Assembly (NCBI RefSeq): GCF_007830435.1
Contig: NZ_VLLC01000019.1
Location: 1-64,000 of the forward strand
From: Desulfobotulus alkaliphilus
GTDB taxonomy: Bacteria; Desulfobacterota; Desulfobacteria; Desulfobacterales; ASO4-4
Reading direction: 5' to 3'
DNA: 64,000 nucleotides
Under the pieces are notes generated by a model that saw only the letters and a program-made list of their open reading frames with translations, had not been told where the DNA came from and searched no databases. The translations under genes and the position numbers were made by a program. Below are positions 2,088 to 30,541 of this stretch, piece after piece. How positions within the stretch are numbered: the stretch's first letter is position 1; every line of letters begins with the position of its first letter.

Positions 2088-3401
2088 TCAGAAATTCTTT
2101 TTCTGCTCCCCTGCATCATCCTTGGGAAACGGCTCTTTTTTTCTGGGCTTATAAAACTGCCATTCCTTGTTCACAATGAGGCGGGCACCCCGGTTAAAGG
2201 TAAAATAGGCTCCTGCCCACTGAAGCACCACAAAGAGTCTGTTTTTAAAGCCCGTAAGAAAATAAATATGGATGAACAGCCATGTGATCCAGGCAAAAAA
2301 ACCCGAAAAACGAATTTTGCCGGCTTCCACCACAGCCCGGCTTCTTCCGATGGTCGCCATCTGGCCCTTATCAAAATACTTAAAGTCCCTGCGGGGTTTT
2401 TCTGCGATATCACAAAGAATATTCCGTGCAATGTGCCGGCCCTGATGCAGGGCCACCGGAGCAACCCCGGACAGTGCCTCGGAAGCACCTTCCGGTATGA
2501 AAGCCGCCTGATCTCCCCCCACAAAAATTTCAGGGTGCCCTTCGATGCTCAGATCCTGTCTGACAGTAACACGCCCCAGCCAGTCCGTTTCCTGCCCCAG
2601 AGAACGATTGATTTCCGAGGCCTGTATGCCCGCAGCCCAGATCACGGTAGCCGCCTGTATGCGTTCCTTTCCAATGGTTACACCATCGGAATCCACCGCT
2701 TCAACCCGCTTGGATGTCCAGACCTGAACCCCCAGAGATTCCAGATCCCTTGTGGCCCTTGCCGAAAGATCCGGATGGTATGCAGGAAGAATCCGCTCAC
2801 CAGCCTCCACCAGAATCACCCTTGTCAGTTTCGGATCAATATTCTTAAAATCTTTGGAAAAGGTGTAACGGCTCATCTCACCGATGGCCCCCGAAAGCTC
2901 CACCCCTGTTGTACCGCCTCCCACCACCACAAAGGTGAGCTGCTTCATTTTTTCTTCCACATTATCGGTGGATTCCGCTTTCTCAAAGGCATAAAGAATC
3001 CTTCGCCGGATTTCTGTGGCCTGCTCAATGGTTTTCAGCCCCGGAGCCAGTGGTTCCCATTCTTCGTTGCCAAAATAGGCATGCTGGGCACCACAGCCCA
3101 GAACAAGATAATCATAGCTGATGCTGCCAATGCTGGTTTCCACCTTCCCGGCACCGGCATCCACGGAGAGGGCTTCCGCCTGAAGAACACGCACATGGGG
3201 ATAGCCGGAAAGAAGACTCCGGAGGGGGGCTGCAATTTCCGCAGGGCTGAGACCGGCCATGGCAACCTGATAGAGAAGGGGCTGAAAAAGGTGATAATTT
3301 CTTCGGTCAATCAGGGTTACCCGCACTTTGCCTGATTTTCCAAGGATCTTTGCCGCGTTGAGGCCGACAAAGCCTCCACCTACGATGAGTACATGTTTCA
3401 T
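2088..3401 (-). CDS. ndh: Type II NADH dehydrogenase (NDH-2)
   Basis: Single-subunit, non-proton-pumping FAD enzyme that passes electrons from NADH to quinone at the inner face of the membrane. The N-terminus has the FAD-binding GGGFVGLNAAK motif, a second dinucleotide-binding motif VVVGGGTTGVELSG lies near residue 160, and FVGGD near residue 300 is the usual second FAD contact. A hydrophobic segment near the C-terminus (about 365-390) fits membrane anchoring. The start at 3401 is chosen because a GGAGGG site precedes it and the FAD motif begins at once; the longer open frame adds 54 residues unrelated to the family. Confidence 0.9.
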   Translation of the reverse strand: MKHVLIVGGGFVGLNAAKILGKSGKVRVTLIDRRNYHLFQPLLYQVAMAGLSPAEIAAPLRSLLSGYPHVRVLQAEALSVDAGAGKVETSIGSISYDYLVLGCGAQHAYFGNEEWEPLAPGLKTIEQATEIRRRILYAFEKAESTDNVEEKMKQLTFVVVGGGTTGVELSGAIGEMSRYTFSKDFKNIDPKLTRVILVEAGERILPAYHPDLSARATRDLESLGVQVWTSKRVEAVDSDGVTIGKERIQAATVIWAAGIQASEINRSLGQETDWLGRVTVRQDLSIEGHPEIFVGGDQAAFIPEGASEALSGVAPVALHQGRHIARNILCDIAEKPRRDFKYFDKGQMATIGRSRAVVEAGKIRFSGFFAWITWLFIHIYFLTGFKNRLFVVLQWAGAYFTFNRGARLIVNKEWQFYKPRKKEPFPKDDAGEQKKNF

Positions 3402-3603
3402 AAGAATTTTCACCCTCCACTTTCCAGGATACCGTTCAGAAAGCCCTGTATGTTTTTTCCTGTCTTTGGCAAAATCATCATATTTGTGTATTGTAATTCT
3501 GAAAGGACTTTTTGTCATCCAGAGACTTTCACAACAAAACAAAAAGCCCCGTACTTCCGTCAAAACACAAGCGGTCTTTCCAAAAGCCCTTTTTAAAAAA
3601 ATG

Positions 3604-24770: not shown

Positions 24771-25379
24771 ATGCATATCATCTGCTCTGATCTGGAAGGC
24801 GTATTCATCCCGGAAATATGGATCAACGTTGCCGAGCGCACGGGCATTGAAGAACTGCGCCTCACCACCCGTGATATTTCAGACTATGATGAGCTTATGA
24901 CCCACAGGCTCAAGGTGCTGGATACCCACGGACTCAAGCTTCAGGACATACAGGAAGTCATTGCCACCATGGAACCTTTACCCGACGCTGCGGATTTCGT
25001 GCAATGGCTCAGGGAAAAGAGCCAGCTCATTGTGGTCTCCGATACCTTTTTACAGTTTGCTGCCCCCCTCATGGCCAAACTCAACCAGCCCACCCTGTTC
25101 TGCCATGAGCTGGAAGTTGCCGCAGACGGGCAGATAACAGCCTATAAACTGCGCCAGAAAGATGCCAAAAGCAAAACCGTCCGGGCACTTAAAAGTCTGG
25201 ATTATACGGTTCTGGCCTTTGGTGACTCCTATAATGATACGGGCATGCTCAAGGAAGCGGATTTCGGATTTTTCTTCCAGCCGCCGGACAATGTGGTGGC
25301 AGATTTTCCTCAGTTTCCCGTAACAAGAGATTATGAAACCCTGAAAAACCATATCAGAAAATCTCTGGGAATTGCCTGA
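24771..25379 (+). CDS. thrH: ThrH-like phosphoserine/homoserine phosphotransferase
   Basis: HAD-superfamily enzyme of 202 residues. Motif I is SDLEGVFIPEIW: the glutamate following the nucleophile Asp (DxE instead of DxD) and the next residues match Pseudomonas ThrH, which dephosphorylates phosphoserine and can transfer the phosphate to homoserine. Motif II is VVSDTF and motif III/IV is LAFGDSYNDTGML. Its position directly after homoserine dehydrogenase supports a link to homoserine and threonine metabolism. A simple serB-like phosphatase role remains possible. Confidence 0.88.
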   Translation: MHIICSDLEGVFIPEIWINVAERTGIEELRLTTRDISDYDELMTHRLKVLDTHGLKLQDIQEVIATMEPLPDAADFVQWLREKSQLIVVSDTFLQFAAPLMAKLNQPTLFCHELEVAADGQITAYKLRQKDAKSKTVRALKSLDYTVLAFGDSYNDTGMLKEADFGFFFQPPDNVVADFPQFPVTRDYETLKNHIRKSLGIA

Positions 25380-25446: not shown

Positions 25447-25523
<77 letters not shown>

Positions 25524-25590: not shown

Positions 25591-26394
25591 TCAGAAAATC
25601 TCCATATCCACCCATTCAGGCCCTGAAAAATCCAGAAACCAGGGACCGCAACCGGTTTTTTCCCCCATCAACACCCTGCAGGCGAGGCTCACCTGAAGCC
25701 CTGCCGTTGCAGCCACTCCAAAAACAGGATTCCCCACGGCCCTGCTTTCATGAATTTCGGCTCTTCCATATATAAAGGAAAGCAGACCCGCTCCCGGCCT
25801 GCAGACCGCCACCTGTCCGGCCCAGCCGGATATGGCTCCGTGGATCAGTGTAATCCCCCTTGCAGCGCAGGCTTTTTCAAGGAAAAGGCGATCAGGGATA
25901 TTATCCAGAGCATCCAGCACCAAATCCACTCCATCAAGAAATTCATCCGCTGTTCCATCACAGAAAACATCCTGTACAGTTATAATATATAGTGCCGGAT
26001 TCACTTCTGCAGCCCTCCGGGCCGCCACCTCTACCTTGGGTCGCCCAAGATCCGACTCCCGGAGAAGCATCTGTCGGTTCAGATTGGAAGGTGCAAATAC
26101 ATCCGGGTCCATTACCTTAAGAACACCCGCACCAAGGCGCAGCCATTGTTCAAGCAATGCCGATCCCAGAGCACCGCATCCCACAATGGCAAGGGTGGAA
26201 TGCAAAAGTTTTTTCTGGGCATTCGCATCCCAGGGATTGCGGATATACCGTTCCGGCATCAGCCCCATCTCCAGAACAAATTTTTCAGCTTCTCTACGGG
26301 AAAGGCCGAATCTCTTTTCCATCTGAATCTGCTTTTCAAAGGATAAAAACCCCTTGTCCGACTCCCGGAGAATCCACTGTTCAGGATTCATCAT
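25591..26394 (-). CDS. ThiF/MoeB-family adenylyltransferase
   Basis: E1-like ATP-dependent enzyme that adenylates the C-terminal glycine of a small sulfur-carrier protein. The nucleotide motif VGCGALGS, the DPDVFAPSNLNRQ segment and the later DALDNIPDRLFL segment are typical of MoeB/ThiF. The paired CxxC zinc site found in many family members is absent in this 267-residue version. Its start overlaps the stop of the upstream MoaD-like gene by four bases, so the substrate is almost certainly that protein. With the aldehyde oxidoreductase upstream, a role in pterin cofactor sulfuration is likely. Confidence 0.85.
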   Translation of the reverse strand: MMNPEQWILRESDKGFLSFEKQIQMEKRFGLSRREAEKFVLEMGLMPERYIRNPWDANAQKKLLHSTLAIVGCGALGSALLEQWLRLGAGVLKVMDPDVFAPSNLNRQMLLRESDLGRPKVEVAARRAAEVNPALYIITVQDVFCDGTADEFLDGVDLVLDALDNIPDRLFLEKACAARGITLIHGAISGWAGQVAVCRPGAGLLSFIYGRAEIHESRAVGNPVFGVAATAGLQVSLACRVLMGEKTGCGPWFLDFSGPEWVDMEIF

Positions 26395-26615
26395 CCACCA
26401 CCCACCACTGGAAAAAGTGAAAGCACATCCCCTGCCAGCAGTGGCAGATCCGGATCCGCATGGCGACCATTGACAAAAATAATGCCCACCTCTTCCATGG
26501 GAATCTTCAAAAGACCCGCAATACTCCGGGGAGTCATCCCCGCCTCCCAGGCCATGGCGCTTTCCCGGAAACGCTCTTTACGGAAACCTGCAAAAAGCCG
26601 GACACCTATTTCCAT
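26391..26615 (-). CDS. MoaD/ThiS-like sulfur carrier protein
   Basis: Small beta-grasp protein of 74 residues ending in Gly-Gly (VVGGG), the required C-terminal tail for adenylation and thiocarboxylation. The sequence pattern (V.LF.GFR early, then LLAGDVLSLFPVV near the end) matches MoaD more than ThiS. The start at 26615 follows a GGAGG site that directly abuts the T-run of an intergenic hairpin. It is co-translated with the ThiF-like gene and follows the oxidoreductase, so it may supply sulfur for the tungsten/molybdenum pterin. Confidence 0.82.
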   Translation of the reverse strand: MEIGVRLFAGFRKERFRESAMAWEAGMTPRSIAGLLKIPMEEVGIIFVNGRHADPDLPLLAGDVLSLFPVVGGG

Positions 26616-26628
26616 GGAATTCCTCCAT

Positions 26629-26660
26629 AAAAAAAGACCTGCCAAAATAAAGACAGGCCC
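26629..26660 (-). terminator. Hairpin terminator between the oxidoreductase and moaD-like gene
   Basis: On the minus strand GGCCTGTC and GGCAGGTC pair (two G-U pairs) around TTTATTTT and are followed by TTTTTTT. The T-run touches the RBS of the moaD-like gene, so this likely works as a partial terminator that lowers expression of the two downstream genes relative to the oxidoreductase. Confidence 0.65.
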
Positions 26661-26680: not shown

Positions 26681-28417
26681 TCAGAATTCCCAGAATGCAT
26701 CCACTTCAGCATCACTGAAATCCCAGATAGTATTATGGGGCGGCAGGGTTTCTTCACTGAAAAACTCGGGAAGCCTGTCAGCGGCCTCGGTAAATCCGGC
26801 CTTGCGATTGAATTCCCTTTCGGTTTTAAGAATGGAAGTACCAAGGGCTGACACATCATCCCCCGTCAGAGAAAGTCCGAAACGGGCATTGAGCATATCC
26901 ACAATGGCATTGAAAGATTCCGGAATATCAAGAACGGGGAAAGCCACAAACAGACAAAGTCCTGTGGAATCAATGGCTGCCGTGGCAATCTGCAGGTTGC
27001 GGGACAACTCCACCTGCCCCTCTTTTTTGAGGGGGTCCACCATGCCACCCACATTCAGAATGTTAGAAGTAACGGTGTAACCGGCCGTATGATCGGCACC
27101 CATTGTGGAAGTGGCATAGGTAATACCCATTCCCTTGACGGATCTGGGATCATAGGCAGGAATCGACTGCCCCTTAACCGTGGGAACCCTTCGCATTCCA
27201 TAGGCCTTACCAAGACATTCGGCACCTGCACCCACAAGACGGCCGAGGGGGCTGCCCTTTGTCACCTCTTCTTTGAGAATACGCAGCATGCCTGAGGCAT
27301 CCCCAAAGGACAGAATGCCTGCTTCCATGGCAACTCCCATTGTAACGCCAAACTCGATGGTATCCATACCTATATCATCGAGCATATGATCCGCTTCGGC
27401 AAGGGCATCCAGATCATCAATACCGCAGTTGGCTCCCATGGCCCAGACGCTCTCATATTCAAAACCGCTGGCCTTTACCTTGCCGTTTTTATCGGGATAC
27501 ACCTGAGAGCACTGGATCACGCAACCGGGATGACAGGAGTGGCGCACCCTGCCCTCCCCACCCCTTTCCTCAATGCGGGCATGCATGGTTTCCCCGGAGA
27601 TCCCTTCATGTCCATCAAAACTGCCCGTACGGAAATTCCGGGTTGGGAGACCGCCGGCTTCATGGAGGACATTGAGAAGAACATTTGTACCATAGGTGGG
27701 AAGCCCCTCACCACTGACAGGGTGTTCCGTCAGAGCCTTGGCAAATACCTTTGAAGCCTCCTTGAAAGCATTTTCATCGGCATAGCTGATACCCGGCGCA
27801 TCAGAAGGATCTATACTTAAATATTTAATACCCTTGGAACCCATCACAGCACCAAGGCCACCACGGCCCAGACTCCGCACACGGCCCTGGGGGTCTTTCA
27901 CGGAAATATTGGCAGAAGGCATGGCCATTTCACCGGCAGGACCGATGGAAATCACACCGGCCTTGCCGCCTTCTTCCCCGGAAAGCTTTTCCACCACACT
28001 GAAGTTTCCGGCACCCGCCATATCCGTTTCCACAATACGGGCACTGTCATGGGTAACATGGATACCAAAGAGTTTTTTTTCTTCCGGCATTCCTTCAATA
28101 ATAATGGCTTTAATACCCATAAGGGCAAGCATGCGCGCAGAAGTGCCACCTGCATTGCTCTCTTTGATGGTTCCGGTTAAAGGGCTTTTTGCTCCTGCGG
28201 AAAGACGACCTGAGTTGGCCGCCCTGGTTCCGGATAGAAGACCGGGGGCAAAGACAAGCTTGTTGTTTTTACCTAAAGGATGGCAGGTCGGAGGCACTTC
28301 AGCAGCTACAATGGCAGAGGTAAGCCCCCTGCCCCCAAGGCCTGCCCACGCTTCGGGGACGGGTTCAAAAACAGTGGATCCGGAAGTCATGTCAATGCGC
28401 AGGATACGATCAGACAT
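26681..28417 (-). CDS. aor: Tungsten-dependent aldehyde:ferredoxin oxidoreductase
   Basis: Cytoplasmic enzyme of the AOR family (tungsto-bispyranopterin plus 4Fe-4S), interconverting aldehydes and carboxylic acids with ferredoxin as partner. The N-terminal GLGGRGLTSAIVA and GPAGEMAMPSANISVKD pterin-binding segments are clear. Iron-sulfur cysteines appear as CHPGCVIQC with three-residue spacings, plus a late Cys in STGLCLFVAFP. At 578 residues it is slightly short for the family. The start at 28417 follows AAAGGAGGAT; the longer frame runs back through the structured leader. Metal choice (W or Mo) and the aldehyde substrate are inferred. Confidence 0.92.
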   Translation of the reverse strand: MSDRILRIDMTSGSTVFEPVPEAWAGLGGRGLTSAIVAAEVPPTCHPLGKNNKLVFAPGLLSGTRAANSGRLSAGAKSPLTGTIKESNAGGTSARMLALMGIKAIIIEGMPEEKKLFGIHVTHDSARIVETDMAGAGNFSVVEKLSGEEGGKAGVISIGPAGEMAMPSANISVKDPQGRVRSLGRGGLGAVMGSKGIKYLSIDPSDAPGISYADENAFKEASKVFAKALTEHPVSGEGLPTYGTNVLLNVLHEAGGLPTRNFRTGSFDGHEGISGETMHARIEERGGEGRVRHSCHPGCVIQCSQVYPDKNGKVKASGFEYESVWAMGANCGIDDLDALAEADHMLDDIGMDTIEFGVTMGVAMEAGILSFGDASGMLRILKEEVTKGSPLGRLVGAGAECLGKAYGMRRVPTVKGQSIPAYDPRSVKGMGITYATSTMGADHTAGYTVTSNILNVGGMVDPLKKEGQVELSRNLQIATAAIDSTGLCLFVAFPVLDIPESFNAIVDMLNARFGLSLTGDDVSALGTSILKTEREFNRKAGFTEAADRLPEFFSEETLPPHNTIWDFSDAEVDAFWEF

Positions 28418-28452
28418 GGCGATCCTCCTTTCATAAAGAAAGACCGGCCTTA

Positions 28453-28571
28453 GGTAGGAGAACTCCTTTCCAGCAGGGTGGCACAGCCGTTTCCAGCTGC
28501 ACCCCGTCCCGAATCCATGAGGCGGGCCGACACCTTTTAGGTCTCCGGGCTCGGAGCGGATTCGCATCCCT
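28453..28571 (-). promoter_or_regulatory. Structured leader, probable Moco/Tuco-type riboswitch
   Basis: About 120 bases of GC-rich leader end roughly 35 bases before the oxidoreductase start. On the minus strand it shows several stems: GGAT-GCGA-ATCC with a GNRA loop (28558-28569), a stem with an ACC/GGT tip (28530-28545), AGCTG-GAAA-CGGCT with a GNRA loop (28485-28498) extended by GGGTG/CACCC-type pairing, and AGGA/TCCT near the 3' end. CTCCGAGCC and GCCTC blocks resemble the molybdenum/tungsten-cofactor RNA motif. The class call is from memory of the motif and needs a covariance-model check. Confidence 0.55.
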
Positions 28572-28952
28572 GATCCAAAATCATTGCTGCAAATCCAAGT
28601 TCCTGTTAATCTGCCAAAATTTGATGAAACTTACAAGCCTACTACCTTGCACCAAAAATAATTCTACCTTGATGCACCACTGAAGGCAGCCACTCCGGTA
28701 CCTTGCAATCTTTTCTGATCAAAGCTTTGCCCACGACTCTCCATGTAATCCCACGCCCTTTGAAAAAGCAAAATACTTTTTTTAAGGATTTTGAATTCTG
28801 TACAGAATTTGTAGGCTGTAACAACAAAAACGAATAAAAAAATCTTTATTTGCCCTGCATCCTTTTTATGTGATAGATACATTTCTATATCATGTGACTG
28901 CATTACTCTTCCAGAAAGAACAGGATCAATGGACCCTAAAGCAGGATAAGCC
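28572..28952. other. Gene-free divergent control region
   Basis: Between the oxidoreductase leader and the first PilZ gene. It is AT-richer than its surroundings and must hold the promoters of both divergent units. No coding frame is convincing; I see no repeat or RNA gene. Confidence 0.5.
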
Positions 28953-29708
28953 ATGACGGACAAGCCTGAAAAAACTCTTCTACCCGGCACAGGTATTGAA
29001 GTCGTTTTTAATCTCAATTCCCTGTCCCCTATGATTCGGTCAGCCATGCTTCTGGATGTCTCTTTTTCAAAACAGGAGCTGATCATATCCCAAACCATAC
29101 CAACGATTTCAAGAACAACTTCATTTAAAGAGATGCATGTCACAACCCTGATGCGGGAAAAAAGCGGTGGCAAGAAACGGTATGGCTTCAAATGCCGGAT
29201 CAAAGACTTTCAAAAAAACTATCTCCTTTCCGATGGCAGTGAGCCGGAAGTTCTTCTTCTCCACCATGAAAAAGATATACAGGAAATCAATATACGATCC
29301 GGTTACCGGATCTCACCGGGTAAAAATTTTCCTGTATTTGCAAAACTGGTCTACAATGGAAAAGAGTATATTTGCGGAAAAGATTTTTCCATCAGGGATC
29401 TTTCCGTTACGGGAGTGGGCCTTGTAGCCCCCAAAAACAAAAATTCGGACAATACAGCACTTTTAAATCTTAAAAACGGCACCCCCATTGCTCTGGGAAT
29501 GGTCCTCAGCTATCCCAAAGGAGACAGAATCGCCAGAGAAAAGGTAGTTTGTGCAGGTAAGGTTGCCAGAGCCAATCCCCATTATAATAAAAATGCCGGT
29601 GTCCTTGGTCTGCATTTTATAAAAATGGTATCTGAAGGAGAAGAATCTCTGATGCGCTTTATACATGAAGCCCAGCTGGAGGAAATCCGGCAGCTCAGCA
29701 GATATTAA
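28953..29708 (+). CDS. PilZ-domain protein, YcgR-like architecture (tandem copy 1)
   Basis: Probable cyclic-di-GMP receptor of 251 residues. The N-terminal half (GTGIEVVFNLNSLSP onward) has the beta-rich form of a YcgR-N/flagellar-brake-like domain. The C-terminal half is PilZ, with the RxxxR ligand motif RSGYR at residues 115-119 and the DLSVTG motif at 149-154, ending in the family-typical FIHEAQLEEIRQLSR helix. A close paralogue follows 71 bases later in the same direction. Which process the pair controls is not evident. Confidence 0.85.
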   Translation: MTDKPEKTLLPGTGIEVVFNLNSLSPMIRSAMLLDVSFSKQELIISQTIPTISRTTSFKEMHVTTLMREKSGGKKRYGFKCRIKDFQKNYLLSDGSEPEVLLLHHEKDIQEINIRSGYRISPGKNFPVFAKLVYNGKEYICGKDFSIRDLSVTGVGLVAPKNKNSDNTALLNLKNGTPIALGMVLSYPKGDRIAREKVVCAGKVARANPHYNKNAGVLGLHFIKMVSEGEESLMRFIHEAQLEEIRQLSRY

Positions 29709-29779: not shown

Positions 29780-30541
29780 ATGACGGACAGCCCCGAAAAA
29801 CTATTTTCTCCGGGAAGGGGAATTGATGTAGTTTTCAACCTGAACTCCCTTTCACCTCTGGTCCGGGCGTCCATTATTTATGATGCCACCCACAAAAAAA
29901 ATGAACTCATCATCGCCCAGACCACACCACGTATCCTGCCCAATACCTCCTTTGATGAGATGCATGTGACCATCCTCGTGATGGGGGAAAAAAGAGAAAA
30001 AAAACGGCTTGGTCTCAAATGCAAAATTTCAGGAATTCGCAGAGACTACGCCCTTTCCAAAGACACGAAGGAAGAGGCTGTTTTTATAGAGTATATGGGT
30101 AAGATAAGCGAAGTCAATATCCGATCTGCCTTTCGCATGTCTCCGGGGAAAAATTACTCCATTTTTGCAAAAATGATTTTAAAAGATAGAGAATACACCT
30201 TTGGAAAAGATTTTTCCATTCTCGATCTTTCCATTACAGGTATAGGCATTGTGGTACCCAAAAAAAACGCTGACCGGGCCAATCCACTGCTGAAGACTGA
30301 AACAGGTACAACGTTTACTTTGGGGATGGCCCTCAAACATTCCGAAGACGAAAAAGTGATAATTGAAAAAGTTGCATGTATCGCTTCAATTGCCCGTATC
30401 AATAACCATTTCAACGAAAATGCAGCCCTTGTCGGCCTTCAGTTTCTGAAAATGAAACCAGAAAGTGAAGAGATCTTAAGCCGCTTCATTCACCATGCCC
30501 AGCTGGACCAGATCCGTCAGCTCAATCGTTATCAAAACTGA
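29780..30541 (+). CDS. PilZ-domain protein, YcgR-like architecture (tandem copy 2)
   Basis: Paralogue of the preceding gene, aligning almost end to end without gaps over the first 120 residues (both have R115 and R119; here RSAFR). The second motif reads DLSITG. Both c-di-GMP contact motifs are therefore intact, so it should also bind the ligand. The charged loop regions differ most between the copies. The tandem duplication is followed by a convergent PP2C phosphatase gene. Confidence 0.85.
   Translation: MTDSPEKLFSPGRGIDVVFNLNSLSPLVRASIIYDATHKKNELIIAQTTPRILPNTSFDEMHVTILVMGEKREKKRLGLKCKISGIRRDYALSKDTKEEAVFIEYMGKISEVNIRSAFRMSPGKNYSIFAKMILKDREYTFGKDFSILDLSITGIGIVVPKKNADRANPLLKTETGTTFTLGMALKHSEDEKVIIEKVACIASIARINNHFNENAALVGLQFLKMKPESEEILSRFIHHAQLDQIRQLNRYQN

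Follow-up and report, generated by a model that had tools for sequence, protein, structure and literature searches.

The window, by which we mean the complete 64,000-nucleotide stretch of Desulfobotulus alkaliphilus DNA analysed here, carries on its minus strand an operon of three genes headed by a structured leader. The first gene (26681..28417) encodes a 578-residue protein of the aldehyde ferredoxin oxidoreductase (AOR) family (PF02730, 3.1e-58; PF01314, 5.6e-79; both far over their cut-offs), whose single large subunit combines AFOR_N and AFOR_C domains, as required of a class I tungsten oxidoreductase, a group in which its domain content would place it. The nearest solved structures are 9mqx, 8c0z and 1aor; of nine solved relatives, eight carry the name of an aldehyde or formaldehyde oxidoreductase, with 8c0z and 9q1t among them named as tungsten enzymes, and the ninth is a putative benzoyl-CoA reductase. 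A ThiS/MoaD-like small protein follows (26391..26645; PF02597, 5.6e-7, 30.4 bits versus 22.5), whose translation could equally well begin at a later ATG, at 26615, and then a 267-residue ThiF/MoeB-like E1 enzyme (25591..26394; PF00899, 1.6e-45). The domains thus confirm the gene order given in a first-pass annotation of this DNA, a tungsten-type enzyme succeeded by MoaD-like and ThiF-like genes. Looked at for signs of tungsten-cofactor use, the genome has three AOR-family matches and one PF00384 match; one TupA-like query, run without a positive control, found no match, and no AOR relative was found on viral contigs. The gene dsrA scores above cut-off, so the host is very likely a sulfate reducer. 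Divergent from the operon, on the plus strand, lies a pair of adjacent proteins (28953-29708 and 29780-30541) that resemble each other on visual inspection, the first of which carries a PilZ domain, while a ThrH-type phosphoserine phosphatase/homoserine phosphotransferase (24771-25379, plus strand) is followed by a tRNA gene (25447-25520).

A covariance-model scan of the leader, which the first-pass annotation had asked for beforehand, revealed a match to the Rfam Moco RNA family (RF01055) on the minus strand from 28568 to 28447 (28447..28568), with a score of 44.2 bits against a gathering threshold of 36, an E-value of 2.9e-7 over the 64-kb window and 1.6e-9 over a 351-base stretch. The match is complete, covering model positions 1-135, and its ends lie no more than 6 nt from those of the structured leader RNA annotated earlier at 28453-28571. 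The AOR start codon at 28417 is 29 nt past the match, consistent with the earlier remark that the leader ends near the ribosome binding site (RBS), and the ThiS/MoaD-like and ThiF-like genes come next, so that the location is that expected of a Moco RNA. A model lacking stem P3, termed R1, scores the aptamer at 71.9 bits, a value that is not independent because the window supplied one of the 32 R1 seed sequences. Neither RF01055 nor the P3-less model found a second copy in the genome (4.0 Mb, 95 contigs, 98% complete), and the RNA was found at this one of the three AOR-family matches only. On sequence grounds, the leader is of the Moco-family cofactor-sensing riboswitch type, a kind already known.

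Alignment to the Rfam model and covariation define the anatomy of the aptamer, which belongs to the P3-lacking subtype. The inner 5' strand of P1, CGCUCC (28553..28558), pairs with GGAGUU (28461..28466), which lies within the conserved GGAAAGGAG; the outermost of the six pairs is nonstandard (C with U) and the second is G-U. The CTCCGAGCC block pointed out in the first-pass annotation is present, running from the 5' strand of P1 across the junction into the beginning of P2. Hairpin P2 (28507..28550) displays the tetraloop-receptor-like blocks CCUAA (28541-28537) and CAUGG (28519-28515), named after Regulski et al. 2008 (PMC2408646), the latter one letter off the consensus UAUGG. The GCCTC block noted previously does occur, within CGCCTCATGG near the 3' half of the tetraloop receptor, but is not the conserved CCUCCC block of the family, which reads GCCACCC in the window. 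P2 is connected to P4 by a two-nucleotide linker (CG, 28505..28506) in place of the P3 stem, whose model positions are deleted in the Rfam alignment, the criterion of the Tuco subtype. Hairpin P4 (28479..28504), in which one conserved U, the partner of the outer G, is replaced by A, is capped by a GAAA tetraloop (28493-28490), the one GNRA loop of a motif previously described as having several GNRA-capped stems. The GAAA loop on P4 and the receptor blocks in P2 are thus both present, as membership of the family requires. P5, which follows P4, consists of two nearly invariant pairs that are little informative on covariation. Just upstream of the aptamer there is a weak promoter-like site (28580..28609, minus strand; TTAACA, 18 nt, AATGAT; 9 of 12 matches); five sites of that quality occur in 4 kb, against 3.6 expected.

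Folded by itself, the leader sequence has a slightly unusual energy (z -2.03, matched by 5 of 200 shuffles), and its unconstrained fold lacks P1, the aptamer costing 10.7 kcal/mol relative to the free ensemble. Folding energy alone is unconvincing; the weight of the case for a real RNA lies with the covariance score and the covariation. In the alignment of 32 sequences, 88.9% of cells pair, 17 of 29 pairs show two-sided changes and the covariation score reaches 0.378, versus 0.147 in shuffles and 0.06-0.10 for slid structures. In 108 distinct rows, an alignment fitted to the structure and thus biased towards it, 90.9% pair, 23 of 29 pairs are changed on both sides and the score is 0.510 versus 0.188 in shuffles. 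With either alignment, none of 500 shuffles was as high in this score or on any of the five measures used. The larger count represents the first of two model searches (114 rows including overlapping loci, 108 distinct); 47 rows of the second search fall outside it, and L074 was omitted, its RNAs being overlapped by L037. The compensatory changes that the first-pass annotation had proposed to look for in the leaders of relatives are therefore many, and P1, P2 and P4 all contribute. Covariation also bears on the possibility that the leader is coding sequence, an ATG at 28567 being the start of a reading frame that continues across the aptamer and into AOR (26681-28567, 628 aa). In the sister species G001, however, the open frame around AOR has 583 codons versus 649 in the window, so the upstream frame is not kept, and the ATG at 28417 has a good Shine-Dalgarno (SD) sequence; this very improbable reading was rejected.

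Matches were found in seven of 96 related genomes, five of them over the cut-off (the host itself, two of the same genus and two others of the order), and in 79 of 395 genomes of the phylum, 76 over the cut-off. The survey set comprises 146 aptamers from 80 genomes, which represent 141 of the 142 over-cut-off places of the phylum sample together with five from the relatives; G428:C15, which runs off its contig, and the places below the cut-off (three in the phylum sample, two in the relatives sample) were left out. The first downstream gene encodes MoaA in 27 cases, a Porin_O_P-type porin in 25, a TupA-like protein in 18, AOR in 13, a ModA-like protein in 10, MoeA in nine, the xanthine dehydrogenase (XDH) FAD subunit in six, the NiFe hydrogenase small subunit and TupB in five each, ABC and formate dehydrogenase in four each, aldehyde dehydrogenase (ALDH) and the XDH molybdenum subunit in three each and MoCF and p695 in two each, with five singletons and five cases where there is none. 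These labels derive from our own clusters and profiles, mostly with one Pfam-checked representative each, and one MoaA (G059_C62_25213, 24 bits) is doubtful. The porins, for which a single representative was checked against Pfam, are often followed by TupA-like transporters (examples are L101, L078, L051 and L054), and are perhaps tungstate or molybdate porins. Tandem Moco RNAs precede one gene in several genomes (L051, L054, L067, L078, L101 and L058), and at L030:1501-1621 (plus strand) and G371:C45:11222-12964 a Moco RNA follows an AOR match on its strand, at a distance of about 60 nt, rather than preceding one. In the TupA-like leaders L068 and L128, short frames after P1 read ..TYRTVRFF.. 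and overlap the terminator hairpin; they are probably terminator rather than leader peptide.

Within the genus, the leader of G002 is identical to that of the window, while the leader of G001 differs in 21 of 156 alignment columns, eight of them within the 95-nt core. The four genomes of the phylum sample that are nearest by score with this AOR (G410, G417, G428 and G197; 67-70% identical) all carry the RNA before AOR. No RNA match was found in the next 15 genomes (AOR 63-68%), and a lax Rfam scan of 14 of their AOR loci gave no RF01055; a scan of a genome collection with AOR returned three relatives, in none of which an RNA exceeded the threshold. In a quick tree of 49 AORs, whose rows are mostly top hits rather than an even sample, the genus of the window falls in a group of 26 rows (SH-aLRT 99), and the seven AORs of its own order lie in a separate group of 11 rows (SH-aLRT 100). 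Transfer of the operon together with its leader would explain both the tree and the distribution of the RNA.

Such a history raises the question of whether the leader, having arrived with a transferred operon, has since drifted and no longer senses its ligand. The window RNA scores among the lowest of the survey, with seven of the 145 others below 44.2 bits and one (G002) equal, and ten AOR leaders outside the genus score 52.1-71 bits. The short linker, the changed P4 base, the lack of a second copy in the genome searches, the position of the AOR apart from those of its order and a leader not strikingly conserved relative to G001 are in line with decay. Against it, G001 reaches 49.7 bits and keeps CCUCCC, which indicates that the motif is intact in the genus, and G002 is the same as the window. 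Linkers in relatives are mostly of 4 or 5 nt, CGAUA (the commonest) or CGAAA for example, but linkers of 2 nt recur in one G059 leader and four moaA leaders. Linker lengths were taken from the P3-less model alignment, in which the P3-bearing G048 (L149) is misaligned and where the finding of 2-6 nt in 160 of 160 rows is a biased count; this alignment was preferred to automatic detection of P4 and the linker, which misplaced the register in some of the RNAs. Decay is therefore judged improbable, and the leader very probably binds a ligand of the molybdenum- or tungsten-cofactor type.

As to the metal, the match to RF01055, the covariation and the AOR family agree with the riboswitch for a molybdenum or tungsten cofactor proposed in the first-pass annotation, and the absent P3 narrows that choice towards tungsten. 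According to Regulski et al. 2008 (PMC2408646), 58 of 176 Moco RNAs lack P3 and were proposed to sense the tungsten cofactor, tungsten-cofactor genes being present in 17 of 19 organisms with such RNAs; direct ligand binding is not shown there, and tungsten sensing was left unsettled, the instability of the cofactors standing in the way of simple binding assays. A 2013 survey (PMC3766115) lists the ligand as "molybdenum or tungsten cofactor?". Alternatively, the RNA could sense the molybdenum cofactor, or either form, with the absence of P3 a trait of the lineage and not a metal code. The P3-lacking form indeed looks usual in the phylum, where 15 of 16 Rfam alignments (the window and its identical twin included) are without P3 and one (G048) has it, and XDH-type genes follow nine, and ModA-like transporters ten, of the 146 RNAs. 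XDH-type enzymes are molybdenum enzymes (molybdenum hydroxylases). P3-lacking RNAs stand before genes of this type at L040, L058, L111 and L112, so the rule that no P3 means tungsten is not clean in the phylum, and the missing stem may be an unsafe metal label there. This alternative is nevertheless rather unlikely, given that the regulated gene belongs to a tungsten-enzyme family, that TupA-like proteins come first after 18 of the 146 RNAs and that tungsten-cofactor genes accompany P3-lacking RNAs in most of the organisms counted in 2008. The tungsten form is thus favoured over the molybdenum form with moderate confidence. With one such RNA found in the genome, before one tungsten-family enzyme, the locus offers a clean place for a test.

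The region directly after the aptamer is predicted to form a hairpin of 14 pairs (28418..28449, minus strand; -15.6 kcal/mol), whose 3' arm holds the SD sequence AGGAGG (28429-28424) serving the ATG at 28417. The energy of the hairpin is unremarkable (z -1.23; 24 of 200 shuffles as good), and G001 is likewise predicted to fold with its SD paired. A call of an intrinsic terminator in the window leader (-7.6 kcal/mol) was rejected, as its "T-run", TCTTTCTT, is an arm of the SD hairpin, and a separate terminator scan listed none on the minus strand at the leader. AOR leaders stand apart as a class: in 13 of 13 cases (12 genomes) P1 is followed by the start codon at a distance of 35-46 nt, leaving little room for a terminator. 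Outside this class a terminator was called in 94 of 133 leaders, versus two of 13 AOR leaders, the two being the weak calls at -7.6 kcal/mol in the window and in its sister G002; the low AOR rate partly restates the short distance, because the stretches scanned ended at the start codon (53-64 nt, against up to 162 elsewhere). By class, terminators number 0 of 3 for ALDH, 0 of 3 for the XDH molybdenum subunit and 15 of 27 for MoaA, and calls in shuffled stretches amount to 0-20% by class, mostly near 5%. The automatic start codons lie too far downstream for many moaA and some other genes, so that the AOR distances alone were used. These models and the layout make control at translation the probable mode in the window.

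In the models, enforcing the aptamer raises the cost of opening the SD from 9.5 to 11.8 kcal/mol in the window and from 8.2 to 11.6 kcal/mol in G001. The window SD stays largely closed in either state (accessibility 0.20 and 0.12), and energy by itself therefore gives no clear sign of a switch; the window values of both models were computed on G002, whose stretch is identical letter for letter. One arm of the hairpin can instead pair with the aptamer strand, at -6.1 kcal/mol in the window and -8.5 kcal/mol in G001. Among the other nine AOR leaders modelled, opening becomes cheaper by 1 kcal/mol or more in five, stays within 0.5 in three and becomes dearer by 1.1 in one; eight of nine are thus easier or flat, and the direction varies from leader to leader.

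On this basis, the AOR–ThiS/MoaD-like–ThiF-like operon would begin with a P3-lacking Moco-family riboswitch that acts on translation, the hairpin directly after the aptamer holding the AOR SD with no convincing terminator beside it. When the cofactor is bound, P1 and P5 would hold the GGAAAGGAG strand of the aptamer, and the pyrimidine arm UCUUUCUUU would be free to pair with AAAGGAGGA at the RBS, turning the operon down; without cofactor, GGAAAGG would compete for the UCUUUCUUU arm. The first-pass annotation had supposed the reverse, that enzyme synthesis is matched to cofactor supply, and the modelled RBS access in the genus leans weakly away from this view. As an ON switch, the same riboswitch would free the RBS when bound, restricting apo-enzyme synthesis to times when cofactor is present; certain AOR leaders have an SD, GAAAGGGAG, complementary to their own P4/P5 strand CUCCCUUUC, which could hide it in the absence of ligand. 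SD accessibility rises by at least 0.1 with the aptamer enforced in five of 11 AOR leaders, and opening becomes cheaper by 1 kcal/mol or more in five of 11 (G197, G360, G410 twice and G120). The SD of G410 moreover pairs with its own aptamer strand better than with nearly all strands of the terminator class (fraction at least as good 0.00 and 0.01). The corresponding pairing is poor in the window and G002, however (-7.6 kcal/mol, with 91% of terminator-class strands at least as good), as well as in G393, G353 and G313, and the window and G001 SDs become harder to open when the aptamer forms. An ON switch is accordingly the less likely polarity, a clear minority view, and the models tip the balance only slightly towards a ligand-OFF switch. 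Taken as a whole, the best explanation, which we regard as likely, is a P3-lacking, most likely tungsten-cofactor, translational Moco-family riboswitch of the AOR operon.

The terminator-bearing leaders provide a comparison. In 92 of them, the aptamer strand of P4, P5 and P1 pairs better with its own terminator than with swapped ones (-20.7 versus -18.3 kcal/mol; mean rank 0.63, p 3e-5, an optimistic value as related leaders are not independent), a preference that fits an antiterminator and points to ligand-OFF control in that class. Moco RNAs also occur before genes of other enzymes. Five of the 146 precede NiFe hydrogenase genes, at L053:3001-3181 (minus), L077:3001-3165 (minus), L072, L118 and L119, four of the genomes belonging to family f85 and the fifth to f106; the small subunit was identified by Pfam for L077 and by similarity for the others, and the hydrogenase large subunit label is a presumptive one. 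Opposite the hydrogenase leader of L053 lies a second, divergent Moco-like RNA (3353-3463, plus; 34.6 bits with R1). Three more precede NAD-type aldehyde dehydrogenases, at L039:1501-1644 (minus), L065:301-441 (plus) and L075:3001-3130 (minus), in three genomes of family f85 (PF00171 scanned for L075, similarity for the others). P3 is absent from the Rfam alignments of L053, L077 and L065. Neither NiFe hydrogenases nor the PF00171 aldehyde dehydrogenase family are known to need the cofactor. One reading is that Moco RNAs control tungsten-free stand-ins, the NAD-type aldehyde dehydrogenase being a possible substitute for AOR; no statement of this was found in the literature accessible to the search, which mostly lacked subscription journals. 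More tentatively still, and doubtful as a whole, the P3-lacking RNAs of the phylum may constitute a tungsten-cofactor regulon with one aptamer and two opposite read-outs, in which makers and importers would be turned off via terminators pairing with the P4/P5 strand, users such as AOR would have short leaders acting on translation, with that strand or an adjacent arm controlling the RBS, and the tungsten-free stand-ins would be reached too. If so, NiFe hydrogenase and NAD-type aldehyde dehydrogenase could replace tungsten enzymes at cofactor scarcity. The survey yields two predictions, that leader type tracks gene function and that tungsten-free enzymes may switch on when tungsten is short.

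Several described systems resemble the window locus. A class I tungsten oxidoreductase encoded with worX and thiF (PMC13328260) shares the single large subunit beside ThiS-like and ThiF-like genes, and the ThiS/MoaD-like protein of the window would fit the WorX of that report; the word riboswitch is absent from its main text, whereas the window operon has a Moco RNA leader. The E. coli moaA leader (RF01055; PMC2408646) has P1, P2 with its receptor, P4 with GAAA, P5 and the junction letters in common with the window RNA, and it is likewise the 5' leader of cofactor-related genes for which RBS control was proposed. It possesses P3, and its RBS was proposed to lie inside P1, whereas the window RNA lacks P3 and its SD starts about 31 nt past P1 in a hairpin of its own. 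The P3-lacking "Tuco" variants described in the same paper are alike in having no P3 and a tungsten-family gene downstream, the window differing in its 2-nt linker, against 4-5 nt in most surveyed relatives, and in the single copy found in the genome. Finally, in Pelobacter carbinolicus, Moco-type riboswitches were predicted upstream of aorA1-A3, encoding acetaldehyde:ferredoxin oxidoreductase (PMC3543383), so a Moco riboswitch before an AOR gene is not new in kind; control of transcription was predicted there, whereas the layout in the window suggests control of translation.
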